From positions 1-28,504 of IMG/VR virus record IMGVR_UViG_3300020183_000362: DNA of 28,504 nucleotides; one strand, written 5' to 3'. A program made the position numbers and the translations under genes. The notes under the pieces are model-generated. The model searched no databases. It saw only the letters and a program-made list of their open reading frames with translations, and was not told where the DNA came from. The stretch comes from a virus. The first letter of the stretch is position 1. Each line of letters starts with the position of its first letter. Shown piece after piece: positions 6,698 to 12,218 of this stretch.

Positions 6698-6724
6698 AAC
6701 ACCCGCTTTGGCGGGTGTTTTTTT
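6698..6724 (+). terminator. rho-independent terminator after gene 32
   Basis: AACACCCGC (6698-6706), TTTG loop, GCGGGTGTT (6711-6719), then a T run to 6724. The stem is a perfect 9 bp. The convergent minus-strand gene ends inside the same T run (stop complement at 6723-6725). On the minus strand the stem is followed by mixed bases, so it is stronger for plus-strand transcripts. Confidence 0.9.
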
Positions 6725-8675
6725 ATACTCTCATTGATGCTAATGAAGAACCAGTGTCTTGTCGTTGATACGGATTCATGTGTGTCGTTTTGACAACCTG
6801 ATTATTTGTTGTTGGTGCATTTACAATAATTGGTGTTTGTGGTTTCATCTGTTGTCTTTGACCAGATGCAACATCTGTAGATGCAGAAGAAACAGCGCTG
6901 CCAGATGCAGAACTTGTTTTTGATTCTGCTTGTGCTAATGATTCCTTTTTACCTGATGCCAAGTCCATTGGTTTGCCATCTTTACCCGCCACTAAAGTTG
7001 GCGCACCAGGATTTTCTGGATTGTCAGCAGTAGGTAATGTTCCGAGTGGTTGAACATGCCAATCTTCTCTTGGAACATTTCTTACCAGTCCAAATTTTTC
7101 TAACCAACCAGTAGGACTATCTCTTGATCCTGCTAACGCATTAAGACCACCAGCGCCTTTTGAATTAATATCAATCGCAAGGCCTTTTAAGTGAAAACTT
7201 CCTTTACCTGTTCCTAAAGGAGGCATTGGTCTTGCAACTAATTTAGCAGCAGCCGCCTCATTACCTCCAAGTTCTGCGACTTTTGCTCTGAATAATTCTG
7301 CTTGTTTCTCATTACTTCTATAGCCGGAAGTAATTAATAGTTTTTTACCTGTTTGTTCATTGAATGCAGTTGCCATGTTCACAAGGCGTTTTTCAAATTC
7401 AGGATGAATACCAGTTAAATCAACTCCAGACTGAACAGAAGCAACTGATGCAAGAGATCCTCCGCCTGTTCCTTGTGGACCTGCTGCTTTACCTACTGCG
7501 GTTGGTGGTTCGGCTGAAATTGGTTTTGGTGCTTTTGGTGCAGCTGATGGTCCTGTTGAAGAAGGAAATGCACCAGGAACAATAATTGAATCTGGCGGTG
7601 GTGCAACTTCAACTGCTTGTGCTTGTTTTTTGGCCGCATCTTCTTGACGCATCGTTTCAGTCTTAGGTGGTAAACCTAATCTTGCACGAACAATCTCATC
7701 ATCACCAGTATATCGTTTTTCTTTCTCTAACTTTTTAACACGCTCAGTTTCTTGTCTTTTCTTTTCATCTGCTTCACTCTTTAATGCTCCATCTTGTTGT
7801 CTTTGTAATTTTTTAGTTTCTGCATCAGTTTCTCCCGCTTCTAACACCGCAGGTTTCTTTATCATGTTCTTAACAAAATTTGGTACCATCCAAGCGGTGG
7901 CTTTATTACTCAATAACTTTTCTGCCCAGCCTGTCAGAGTTTCTTTAATGCTATCAATTACACCAGAAATTTTATCAATAACATTTTTTATAAATTCAAA
8001 AGTTTGAGGAAATTTTTCAGCCAACATTTGTATTTTTTCGCCAAACCAATTACTAATTTTTTCAACAAAACCTTTTATTGCATCTACAACTGGAGCAATA
8101 AGCTCTTTTGCTTTATCAATTATTGGTTGAATGGAATCTTCAAACCATTGTTTAATACTATTTGTGAATTCATCAAACTTTATTTTAATCGCATCAAATA
8201 AACTTGTTGCCCATTCTGCAAAAGTATCTTTGAAAGCAATAAACACAACACCTACGATAGCTGCAAGACCTAAATATTTTGTAAGTTTTTTTGCTATGTT
8301 GCTTTTTGAATATTGGTCTTTTAATTTGGCATATTTCTTTTTTGCTTTTTCTTTAAGTTTTTCTCCTGCTTTAGAAATCAAAGTTGGTTTTTTATCTTCG
8401 GCAGTTTCAACTTCTAATTTTTTCTCTCTCTCAGATTCTTTGAGAAAATGGGCATCCGCACCTTTTGCAGGTTTACCGCCTTCTAATTTCACAAGCGTTT
8501 GGAAATTTTGACGAGCAACATTTAAGTCACGAGCAAGACCAGGCAAAGTCATAAAGTTTTTGCCAATGACTTTCATAAGTGCATTTGGATTTTCTTTGAC
8601 TATACCTTGGGTCTTTGTAACACCAAGAACTTTGTCTTTTATAGAACCACCAAGAATTTTTGAAATATCTGCCAT
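6723..8675 (-). CDS. tail/baseplate structural protein with C-terminal M15 peptidase domain
   Basis: 650 residues. Residues 31-88 (KVIGKNFMTLPGLARDLNVA and GADAHFLKESERE) match a segment of the next gene, showing paralogy. Then come a basic region, a hydrophobic helix (LGLAAIVGVVFIAFKD, about 136-151), amphipathic tape-measure-like helices, a charged coiled region and a Pro/Ala-rich linker. Residues about 420-545 hold an M15 (VanY/D-Ala-D-Ala carboxypeptidase-like) domain: SGYRS, SFHLKGLAID with H495 and D502, and DWHVQP with H540, the usual zinc ligands. Near the C-terminus is VNAPTTNNQ, again shared with the neighbour. It likely sits in the tail and cuts peptide cross-links in peptidoglycan during DNA entry. 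Tape-measure identity is possible but unproved. Confidence 0.75.
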   Translation of the reverse strand: MADISKILGGSIKDKVLGVTKTQGIVKENPNALMKVIGKNFMTLPGLARDLNVARQNFQTLVKLEGGKPAKGADAHFLKESEREKKLEVETAEDKKPTLISKAGEKLKEKAKKKYAKLKDQYSKSNIAKKLTKYLGLAAIVGVVFIAFKDTFAEWATSLFDAIKIKFDEFTNSIKQWFEDSIQPIIDKAKELIAPVVDAIKGFVEKISNWFGEKIQMLAEKFPQTFEFIKNVIDKISGVIDSIKETLTGWAEKLLSNKATAWMVPNFVKNMIKKPAVLEAGETDAETKKLQRQQDGALKSEADEKKRQETERVKKLEKEKRYTGDDEIVRARLGLPPKTETMRQEDAAKKQAQAVEVAPPPDSIIVPGAFPSSTGPSAAPKAPKPISAEPPTAVGKAAGPQGTGGGSLASVASVQSGVDLTGIHPEFEKRLVNMATAFNEQTGKKLLITSGYRSNEKQAELFRAKVAELGGNEAAAAKLVARPMPPLGTGKGSFHLKGLAIDINSKGAGGLNALAGSRDSPTGWLEKFGLVRNVPREDWHVQPLGTLPTADNPENPGAPTLVAGKDGKPMDLASGKKESLAQAESKTSSASGSAVSSASTDVASGQRQQMKPQTPIIVNAPTTNNQVVKTTHMNPYQRQDTGSSLASMRV

Positions 8676-8676
8676 A

Positions 8677-10527
8677 CTATGTTCTGATTAATTTGGCAAA
8701 TTCTTCATTAAATACATTTGCAACTTGTGGTTTGGCCCCACCTTCTGATGCTAAAGAACTGTTTGTTGTTGGGGCGTTTACAACAGAACCAACATCAGCG
8801 GCAGATTCCATTCTCTGTGCTTCTGCAACTTGACTAGAAGCATCAGACAAAGAAGAACCAGATGAAGGTGGATCAGCACTAATTGGAGATGGTGCTGAAG
8901 GAGTTGAAGAAGAAGATGATACTGAACCTCCGGTTGCACCACCTCCTGATGAAGCAGAAGTTGCACCAGGTGCTGAAGTTGATGGAGAAGAAGAAACTGT
9001 TCCACCGCCAGATTTTTTAATGAACTCTATCTGTCTTTGAAAACCAGCATTTGCTTCTTCCATTTCCTTTCGTTCAACATCAAGTGTTTGTTTATAATCA
9101 TCTTCTAATTCTTTAACTCTGGAAGGATCATTTGCATATCGTCTTTTGAATGATGCTATATGTCTTTCAGCATCAGCTTCTCGTCTTGCGAATCTTTTCT
9201 TATTACCTTCAATGTAACCTTCTAATTGTTTAACTTTATCCGTATCAGACATTTCGGGTGCGGGAGTAGGTGCAGACTGAACGGGTGCAGGAGGTGTTGC
9301 CGGTGTAGGAGGCGCCGGCATCTCTAATGGTGTGCCAAGTGCTTTAGATGCTTCGCCTGTCAATTGTTTATTTAATTCGTAATTGCGTTGTGCTTGTTCA
9401 AGTGGTATGCCTTCTTTTGTTACTGGTTCTGGAGTGGTTTCAGTTGGCGGCGGTTCAGGATATTTTGCAGCGAACTCTTGTGCTTTTGCAAATAAACCTC
9501 CCGCATCCCCTTTTCCTACTGCACCAAATAAAGCACCAAGGTCCGCAGATTTTTCATCGGATGCGCCAGATGCTTTTGCTGCACCAGAGGCAAATTTGGC
9601 AGGATCAGGCATTGTAGGTTTAACTGAATCTGCTTTTGCAGGTGCATCGTCTTTTACATCAACTTTGCCACCAAATAAACCCTTTACAAAATCTTTAATG
9701 CCAGTAAAAATATTTGATATTGTGTCTGTGATTGGCTGAAAGAAACTACTAATAGAATCAAATAACGATTTAAGCGTATCTTCACCAAACAATCCAAAAG
9801 TCAAAAACTTTAACATTCCACCAAGACCAGAAACTATTGCTTCACTAAAACTTCCTGTCTCTTGGTACTTTTTGAAACCTGCTGTGATACCACTAAACAA
9901 GGTTCCAATAATTGCAAGTGGTAAGAAAACTTTTTTGAATACTGATATTAAATTCTTTGGACTGAAAAGTTGTTTAATGCCCTCCATAAAACCGCCACTA
10001 AACATTTTCATTATGGAATCAAGAAGACCACCTTCTTTATCTTGTGTTGGTGCAGCTGCAGCCGTTGGTGCTGCGCCACCCGCTTTCATCCTTTGTGCTT
10101 CTAATGCCCGTTCACGCTCATCTTCTTTGAGGAAGAACGCATCGGCACCACCTCTAGATTTGCCACCTTTGAGTTTAACAAGTTTTTGAACATTCTGTCG
10201 AAGAACATTCATATCTCTGGCCATGCCAGGCAATGCCATAGAATTTTTTGCAATCACTTTCAACATCACAGCAGTATCGCCAGACATTTCTGCACCACCA
10301 ACTTTTTCTGGTGCTCTTTCTTTTCCTGGTTTGGCTTTGACACCTAACTTGTTACGAATCATTGCAGAGAAAATATCATCACCGCCAAACATTGCACGAA
10401 CAATGTTTTCTTTGCCAAACTGTTTACCAATGTCTTTCATCGAACCAGAAGCCGCAGCTTTAGCTCCACCTGATAAACCTTTACCAGATTCTATTTCAGA
10501 AATATATCTACTTGCAAAATCTGCCAT
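8677..10527 (-). CDS. tail structural protein, tape-measure-like, paralogue of the M15 protein
   Basis: 616 residues. Residues 85-143 (VIAKNSMALPGMARDMNVLR and GADAFFLKEDERERALE) align with residues 31-88 of the downstream protein. A hydrophobic stretch (VFLPLAIIGTLFSGITAGF, about 205-225) and repeated amphipathic segments (FLTFGLFG, ISSFFQPITDTISNIFTGI) resemble tape-measure proteins. Next are a Pro/Ala-rich linker, a charged coiled coil (EGNKKRFARREADAERHIAS) and a Ser/Gly-rich region. The C-terminus has VVNAPTTNSS. There is no peptidase domain. The ATG overlaps the stop of the gene 26 frameshift frame (TAATG), the place a tape measure occupies after tail assembly chaperones. T4 gene 29 function is a reasonable guess only. 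Confidence 0.7.
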   Translation of the reverse strand: MADFASRYISEIESGKGLSGGAKAAASGSMKDIGKQFGKENIVRAMFGGDDIFSAMIRNKLGVKAKPGKERAPEKVGGAEMSGDTAVMLKVIAKNSMALPGMARDMNVLRQNVQKLVKLKGGKSRGGADAFFLKEDERERALEAQRMKAGGAAPTAAAAPTQDKEGGLLDSIMKMFSGGFMEGIKQLFSPKNLISVFKKVFLPLAIIGTLFSGITAGFKKYQETGSFSEAIVSGLGGMLKFLTFGLFGEDTLKSLFDSISSFFQPITDTISNIFTGIKDFVKGLFGGKVDVKDDAPAKADSVKPTMPDPAKFASGAAKASGASDEKSADLGALFGAVGKGDAGGLFAKAQEFAAKYPEPPPTETTPEPVTKEGIPLEQAQRNYELNKQLTGEASKALGTPLEMPAPPTPATPPAPVQSAPTPAPEMSDTDKVKQLEGYIEGNKKRFARREADAERHIASFKRRYANDPSRVKELEDDYKQTLDVERKEMEEANAGFQRQIEFIKKSGGGTVSSSPSTSAPGATSASSGGGATGGSVSSSSSTPSAPSPISADPPSSGSSLSDASSQVAEAQRMESAADVGSVVNAPTTNSSLASEGGAKPQVANVFNEEFAKLIRT

Positions 10528-10724
10528 TATCGTTTTCTAGTTGCCTTTTGTAGTTCAATGCGTTCTTTTTCTTCCTGCAAATACTTCACTAGCAGAGACA
10601 CATAAATGTTTCTTTCCCAAGGTATCATATTTTCCAATTCAGTCAAACTATACTTGTGATGTTGCAATAAAGCAAAGTTTGTCTCATAGTAATTCTTCAG
10701 AGTATCATAACGAAAGATTAGACG
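10527..10724 (-). CDS. gene 26 frameshift extension (no start codon; gene 51 position)
   Basis: A 65-codon frame, -1 relative to gene 26, reads from the slip site to TAA at 10529-10527. It contains NYYETNFALLQHHKYSLTEL, then MIPWERNIYVSLLVKYLQEE and a basic end KATRKR. Its upstream limit is a TGA inside gene 26. No ATG, GTG or TTG occurs before the 21st codon, so independent translation of the whole frame is unlikely. The codons make a credible helical protein, and the stop overlaps the next ATG exactly (TAATG). Translated through the frameshift it gives a gp26 fusion of about 307 residues. In T4, gene 51 occupies this slot; in lambda and P2 the analogous slot holds the T or E' extension. Confidence 0.7.
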   Translation of the reverse strand, partial: RLIFRYDTLKNYYETNFALLQHHKYSLTELENMIPWERNIYVSLLVKYLQEEKERIELQKATRKR

Positions 10725-11449
10725 AAAAAACTTTGCATGCCCTTTATCGTCATATCTTCTTCATAACTGCATTTTGGACATTTGAAATGCACATCTTTTT
10801 TCACTTCAGGCATTGTATCAAAAAACTCTTTGAATTTCTCTAAATCTTTTTGTTGAAGACTATCAACAAATTCTTCCAGTTCTTCTCTTGGTGTATCTTT
10901 TGCATAATAAATTTGTTCTTTGTCATAAATGTAATCGATACAATCAACAAGAATACGAATCATCACCTCATTTTCATTTAACTTTTCATATTTCTGAATC
11001 ATTTCAAAAGTTGGATATTTGAAGCAGATACCAAGATTCTCTGTAATTTGAATCTTGTTTTTGTGGTTTGGATTTTTTGTTGGTTCAATTTCTAATAAGT
11101 TCAAATCAAACTCAACAATACCACTACACTTGGTTTCTTCACCGTTCTCGCCTTTGATGACATTGTTGCACTTGTACCGAAGATTCACAATTTCCTCTAC
11201 AGACCTTGCACGAAGATGCATGAAAAGAAACTCTAGGTCAAAAGTAGGAAGATTGTCAATATCGATTTCATCAAGCACACAATTCTTCAACACTTGACGA
11301 ATAACACCAATCATTTCGTTTGGGTCTTCAGATTCAGATGCCATAAGAAACAATTTCTGTTCTTTGACAAGAAACGGACGAAAACGAATTGGTTTACCTG
11401 TCGAAATTAAATTGACAGTATGAATAGGAACATCTAATTTAGGTAACAT
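10718..11449 (-). CDS. 26: gp26-like baseplate hub assembly protein / tail assembly chaperone
   Basis: 243 residues against about 208 for T4 gp26. It starts MLPKLDVPIHTVNLISTGKP, then IRFRPFLVKEQKLFLMASES, the typical opening of the T4_baseplate (gp26) family in marine T4-like phages. Cysteines C94, C108, C224 and C227 (YKCNN, TKCSG, CPKC) could form a zinc ribbon. GAGGA lies five bases before the ATG. The stop comes two codons after a slippery heptamer, so a minor longer product is predicted. Its place upstream of two tape-measure-like proteins fits a chaperone that wraps the tape measure during hub and tail-tube assembly. Confidence 0.82.
   Translation of the reverse strand: MLPKLDVPIHTVNLISTGKPIRFRPFLVKEQKLFLMASESEDPNEMIGVIRQVLKNCVLDEIDIDNLPTFDLEFLFMHLRARSVEEIVNLRYKCNNVIKGENGEETKCSGIVEFDLNLLEIEPTKNPNHKNKIQITENLGICFKYPTFEMIQKYEKLNENEVMIRILVDCIDYIYDKEQIYYAKDTPREELEEFVDSLQQKDLEKFKEFFDTMPEVKKDVHFKCPKCSYEEDMTIKGMQSFFV
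10724..10730 (-). other. 26: -1 ribosomal frameshift site T TTT TTC
   Basis: On the minus strand, gene 26 ends AGT TTT TTC GTC TAA. The heptamer T TTT TTC (10730-10724) is in the correct phase for tandem -1 slippage; both tRNAs re-pair on TTT TTT. Reading then continues CGT CTA ATC into the 65-codon frame. AAAGGG lies at 10745-10740, nine bases before the heptamer, where a Shine-Dalgarno-like element stimulates -1 shifting in E. coli dnaX. I saw no clear downstream pseudoknot. Confidence 0.7.
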
Positions 11450-11468: not shown

Positions 11469-12218
11469 TTAAAATGCACGACCAATTGGTAATGCTCTTG
11501 CTGCGACTGAACCAAAGAGTGCAGTAGCCGCTGATGCTAAATCATATCCACCATCATATACTGGTCGATATCTTTGATATGCAAATTGAATTGAAAGGCG
11601 ATGAAAACCATCTTCTCCCCAACTCAATTGTTGTGGTGCAATTCCAATAGGAAATGCATCGACAAGTTCTACTGCGAAAATTCGTTTAATAAATTCGTCA
11701 TACTGAATAATTTTGATGTTTGTCAGATACCGAGATTGTTGACCTTTTGGAAAACGAATATTGTTTGTGTCAGAAGGATGAATTGCTTCCATCCAACGGT
11801 CAAATAACTTTCTTTCGTAGAAGTCATTGGTACACAGAAAGGTTAATGTTGTATCAGTATATTGTGTTTGATAAGGCACTTTGAAAGTAGGTCCATAAAT
11901 TTTCACATCGGCAGTTGCAGTTGTTCTGCCAGGCAGTTCTGCACTTTCACATTGAAGTGCCAAATATCTTGATAGTGAAGCATTAGAAGTTCTAGAAAAT
12001 TCATCTGCTTGACCTTGTCGGCCAAATGCCGAACCAATGGCATCAGATACATCACTAAAAATAGAATTTGGAAAGTTCAATATCTTTTCGATGATTGAGT
12101 TGCCTACGAATTGATTAATATATGGTGGAATTGGAAGAATGACTTCAAACCTAGAGGGTTTTGCAAGCCCATCTTTACCACGAATATTTGATAAGAATAA
12201 ATTTGGTGAGAACGACAT
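11469..12218 (-). CDS. 54: tail-tube-fold protein, probably gp54 tail tube initiator
   Basis: 249 residues. The N-terminus GKDGLAKPSRFEVILPIP and the central LALQCESAELPGRTTATADV, then FLCTNDFYERKLFDRWMEAI and the IQYDEFIKRIFAVELVDAFP strand pattern, fit the gp19-like tail tube fold shared by T4 gp19, gp48 and gp54. The length is closer to gp54 (about 320) than to gp19 (163), and genes 26 and 48 flank it in the hub region. Role: binds gp48 on the hub and starts tube polymerisation. It directly abuts the upstream gene (stop at 12219-12221). It could instead be another tube-fold baseplate protein. Confidence 0.6.
   Translation of the reverse strand: MSFSPNLFLSNIRGKDGLAKPSRFEVILPIPPYINQFVGNSIIEKILNFPNSIFSDVSDAIGSAFGRQGQADEFSRTSNASLSRYLALQCESAELPGRTTATADVKIYGPTFKVPYQTQYTDTTLTFLCTNDFYERKLFDRWMEAIHPSDTNNIRFPKGQQSRYLTNIKIIQYDEFIKRIFAVELVDAFPIGIAPQQLSWGEDGFHRLSIQFAYQRYRPVYDGGYDLASAATALFGSVAARALPIGRAF

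Follow-up and report, generated by a model that had tools for sequence, protein, structure and literature searches.

Gene 26 of the DNA analysed here, from a marine T4-like virus (28,504 nucleotides, hereafter the window), and the start-less reading frame behind it are almost certainly, judging from their sequences, one tail assembly chaperone gene that would yield products of two lengths by programmed −1 frameshifting. An earlier note on this DNA had read the junction as a programmed −1 frameshift, and the present analysis supports that reading through a slippery heptamer conserved in phase, selection acting on the −1 frame and synonymous constraint at the site. The sequence itself showed the site and its phase, the coding selection on the extension, constraint on synonymous change, the stimulator and the order of the genes. 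The features of the region are listed in Table 1.

The 3′ end of gene 26 reads AGT TTT TTC GTC TAA. The sequence bore out the slippery heptamer in the exact phase for −1 slippage at the end of the gene, as well as the 65-codon open frame ending in TAATG, and the position of AAAGGG nine bases 5′ of the heptamer was confirmed. The −1 frame is open from position 10760 to its stop codon at 10529..10527 (minus strand), where it overlaps the start codon, ATG, of the ORF that follows. Slippage by −1 at the heptamer would give a predicted fusion of 307 residues, 65 of them new. The earlier note had also described the first 20 codons of this frame as free of start codons; this held for ATG, which first appears at codon 33 within the conserved core ENMIPWER, and failed for TTG, which occurs at codon 20.

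Table 1. Positions of the frameshift junction and neighbouring tail genes in the window.
Feature	Coordinates	Strand	Evidence
Tail tube protein, directly upstream	11469..12218	−	phrog_45, E = 1.3e-35
Gene 26 homologue, putative short chaperone form (TAC-N / gpG-like), 243 aa	10718..11449	−	PF12322, phrog_150
AAAGGG, Shine-Dalgarno-like candidate stimulator, 9 nt 5′ of the heptamer	10740..10745	−	Synonymous shuffle test
Slippery heptamer T TTT TTC, two codons before the stop	10724..10730	−	Phase xxT TTT TTC
TAA, 0-frame stop of gene 26	10718..10720	−	Sequence
−1 frame extension (gp51 homologue; TAC-C), 65 codons and stop	10527..10724	−	phrog_634; pN/pS
Tape-measure-like protein 1, 616 aa, its start overlapping the stop of the extension	8677..10527	−	phrog_58/991, weak (E 4e-4); position; paralogy
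Tape-measure-like protein 2, 650 aa, VanY/M15 peptidase-like domain	6723..8675	−	phrog_991/1272, E about 1e-6; VanY, E = 1.7e-7

Profile searches matched the gene 26 product to PF12322 (T4_baseplate; E = 4e-59, 200 bits against a gathering cut-off of 24.5) and to phrog_150 (E = 1e-77). The 65-residue extension alone matched phrog_634, a family labelled 'baseplate hub assembly catalyst' (E = 8e-27), and the match of the fusion to this family crossed the junction, covering residues 200–305. An AlphaFold model of the gene 26 product of the window had a mean pLDDT of 88. The top PDB match of this model by probability in Foldseek (0.80) was the HK97 tail assembly chaperone 2ob9, a short match of 61 columns with an E-value of 0.78; the likeness of the modelled protein to the HK97 chaperone fold is suggestive only.

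A tblastn search with gp26 hit 1509 GenBank phage records, for the most part from cyanophages, relatives of T4 and phages of Ackermannviridae type, and the extension alone gave matches in 576 records. Two gp26-based scans of IMG/VR, combined with finished genomes, provided 165 usable loci; removal of loci more than 90% alike and of those with the extension cut off left a non-redundant set of 104. A further scan used only the extension as query and was therefore not biased towards the slip site; it gave 78 scored loci, some on contigs that overlap the gp26-based set. The contig scan with a T4-type gp51 as query returned four loci only, so no inference on the frequency of the two-gene arrangement is drawn from it.

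The earlier note had proposed comparing the junction across relatives as a check, and the comparison found the heptamer, its phase and the frame of 60-odd codons conserved, together with synonymous constraint. The −1 frame was open 3′ of gp26 in all 165 loci, contig ends shortening it in a few. The heptamer T TTT TTY occurred in slip phase in 162 of these loci (101 of the 104 non-redundant ones), and the three exceptions, CBA120, K483 and Kuja, carried a T7-gene-10-like N NTT TTY. All 78 extension-only loci had the heptamer in phase, as T TTT TTY in 75 and T TTT TTA in 3. The latter three (L210, L216 and L239) were initially scored as having lost the heptamer; their in-phase T TTT TTA changes Phe-Phe of frame 0 to Phe-Leu and retains both the slipperiness and the −1 reading FFR. 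The heptamer was also retained where the stop codon sits 1–7 codons further downstream. Among the loci scanned, there was no relative with the −1 frame but without a slip-type site.

Two variants of the junction were observed in passing. T TTT TTT directly abuts the stop codon (e.g., AGT TTT TTT TAA or TAG) in ten loci (L035, L039, L047, L052, L063, L064, L068, L070, L071 and L089); a stop immediately after the A-site codon is possibly a stop-assisted variant of the shift. Ackermannviridae-like relatives (L004:3720-3905, L007:3642-3848, L008:3591-3878, L252-L269, L285, L286 and L295) have an open −1 frame after gp26 with N NTT TTY (G/A ATT TTC, A CTT TTC or C CTT TTT) and no full heptamer. In CBA120, the open −1 frame after gp26 holds no annotated gene.

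The breadth of this conservation bears on whether an error in the run of six T has split one ordinary gene, a test that the earlier note had set for the frameshift reading. Homopolymer runs are prone to error, and T4 has the protein in a single frame, as gp51. However, the same run and frame relation were found in more than 150 IMG/VR contigs and in the finished genomes of S-PM2, P-SSM4 and pf16, and a one-base mistake would need to recur at the same place in all of them. Four loci from other metagenomes (L091-L094), with gp26 98–100% identical, have the same T6 run, which makes an assembly error unlikely. These independent assemblies rule the error out in practice, and we give it a negligible probability.

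Codon statistics were in line with a programmed frameshift. With amino acids and codon usage taken into account, xxT TTT TTY was expected in 46 of 101 non-redundant loci and was observed in all 101; the loci are related and not independent, so the naive probability of this excess is not taken literally. At control xFF sites elsewhere in gp26, the slip form was used in 5 of 35 cases. Synonymous diversity was zero over codons −4 to −1, the four codons ending at the heptamer, across 31 clade members. For extension codons 1–18, pN/pS calculated from 191 pairs was 0.13 in the −1 frame, 2.56 in the 0 frame and 0.87 in the +1 frame, indicating that, by this measure, the stretch is under purifying selection in the −1 frame only. 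Synonymous variation was also low in extension codons 1–2 and 4–6 (10707-10724 in the window, and in relatives); this low variation just 3′ of the slip site, where no stable fold was detected, may represent a further signal.

These codons also bear on how the extension is likely to be reached. The extension could instead be a separate small gene, gp51, as several cyanophages are annotated, its own start being used through translational coupling or reinitiation once gene 26 has ended. In S-PM2, P-SSM4 and Vibrio phage V07, an ATG lies no more than about 8 nt from the gene 26 stop, with gp51 or hypothetical ORFs annotated, and an early ATG is present in 28 of 101 relatives, in which a separate gp51 start is possible. 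Against this, the first 18 extension codons lack ATG in the other 73 relatives and in all 23 members of the window's clade, and they lack ATG, GTG and TTG alike in 50 of the 101 non-redundant loci. The codons 5′ of the usual starts are selected at the protein level in the −1 frame only, and the heptamer is invariant even in relatives with an early ATG. T4 and Aeromonas phages have in-frame long forms. For the window itself, a separate gp51 start was rejected on the absence of ATG before codon 33, which lies inside the conserved core. A separate gp51 is very improbable; codons 1–18, often start-less, are most simply translated by ribosomes arriving from gene 26.

The frameshift reading gained further support from the sequence 5′ of the heptamer, where the earlier note had compared AAAGGG to the dnaX stimulator. 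In the relatives, anti-Shine-Dalgarno pairing just 5′ of the heptamer was −6.0 kcal/mol against a shuffle mean of −4.5, stronger than in 200 of 200 synonymous shuffles, and the same test detected no such excess in a control stretch further upstream. Codons for Lys/Glu/Arg-Gly spelled GGG in 62% of cases before the heptamer versus 24% at control sites. This conserved Shine-Dalgarno-like signal argues for AAAGGG as a stimulator. Downstream RNA structure was set aside as a stimulator: simple shuffles of 51 relatives revealed no strong conserved fold, with a mean z of only −0.3 to −1.1.

The stimulator also helps to separate ribosomal slippage from slippage of the polymerase during transcription of the T6 run. 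Six to eight T in the run could permit the latter, and the final product would be identical. Nevertheless, the X XXY YYZ slip phase is preserved, the run at most sites is just six T with a C after it, T TTT TTA stands at the site in three relatives, and in the Ackermannviridae-like relatives the −1 frame is retained after a run of four or five T. Conservation of a Shine-Dalgarno-like ribosomal stimulator likewise speaks against transcriptional slippage, which we consider most improbable.

Under programmed −1 frameshifting, most ribosomes would halt at TAA and release the 243-residue short form. A minority would be paused by the Shine-Dalgarno-like AAAGGG with TTT TTC in place, slip by −1 at T TTT TTC and read 65 further codons to complete the 307-residue long form. 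Both the slippage and its rate are what we infer from the sequence. If the analogy with lambda gpG/gpGT holds, the part common to both products would coat the tape measure protein, whose gene is adjacent, and the extension would recruit tail tube subunits from the gene upstream; a chaperone role for the gene 26 products is suggested by the same analogy.

The neighbouring genes support the G/GT-type chaperone assignment made in the earlier note. A tail tube gene lies upstream and tape-measure-like genes downstream, an order (tail tube, chaperone, tape measure) that is the V-G/T-H order of lambda. The two downstream genes, which had been called tape-measure-like from the sequence alone, look so by their weak phrog matches; their products share 31.8% identity over 211 aa, and tblastn of both against GenBank phages gave no match for either. 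The tandem pair recurs in the window's clade (L091, L096, L098, L116, L118, L124-L126, L128, L132, L151, L155 and L160), and L151 possibly has a third tandem tape-measure-like gene. One frameshifted chaperone pair might serve two paralogous tape-measure proteins, with about 200 residues in common in their N-terminal halves and a peptidase-like domain in the second, so that the tail ruler would be a hetero-assembly and not one kind of molecule; we regard this idea as speculative and rather unlikely. The tandem paralogous tape-measure-like genes are perhaps a fresher lead than the frameshift.

The frameshift described here is well supported but was already reported for T4-like phages in 2022. 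According to a 2016 review, frameshifting of the G/GT type is a widely conserved trait of long-tailed phages 'except T4' (PMC5009743). The paper on phage Adele (PMC12846349) cites Vladimirov, Gautam & Davidson (Virology 2022, 566:9-15, PMID 34826709) for slip signals of the poly-T type in the TAC-N genes of T4-like phages. The 2022 case concerns the same gene family at the same position. The present analysis appears to differ from it in covering an uncultured clade with a start-less extension, in its wide conservation counts and in its tests of synonymous constraint and of the Shine-Dalgarno-like stimulator. In that report, Vladimirov, Gautam and Davidson are said to have found frameshifting kept in several T4-like groups, with T4 using separate genes 26 and 51.

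T4 gp26 matched PF12322 only (E = 9e-64), and T4 gp51 (249 aa) matched PF12322 over residues 1–201 and then the extension family phrog_634, all in one frame. The gp51 of Aeromonas phages is likewise a natural in-frame long form, with the PF12322 domain followed by the same tail. In T4 and Aeromonas phage Aes012, gp26 and gp51 are encoded by two separate, divergently placed genes, whereas the window has one gene and a slip; T4 gp26 lacks the heptamer that gene 26 of the window carries. From these sequences, T4 seems to encode the short form and the long form in a gene each, and the window and most relatives seem to rely on slippage within a single gene. T4-like and Ackermannviridae-like phages at large have the slip site, and T4 with its genes 26 and 51 looks exceptional, in agreement with the 2022 report. 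The free-standing gp51 'assembly catalyst' in many cyanophage records probably represents the end portion of a fusion protein. In the marine clade, gene finders will miss the extension because it lacks a usual start codon.

The arrangement resembles lambda G/GT and P2 E/E+E′ in having a −1 slip near the end of the chaperone gene, a position between the tail tube and tape measure genes, and a predicted minor long form. In contrast to lambda, whose heptamer is not that of the window, the window encodes a PF12322 family protein with conserved Cys pairs; the two are likened by arrangement and not by sequence similarity. The slip site of T7 gene 10 is G GTT TTC. The Ackermannviridae-like relatives CBA120, K483 and Kuja resemble it in having N NTT TTY at the same place, whereas in the window the heptamer T TTT TTC is complete.
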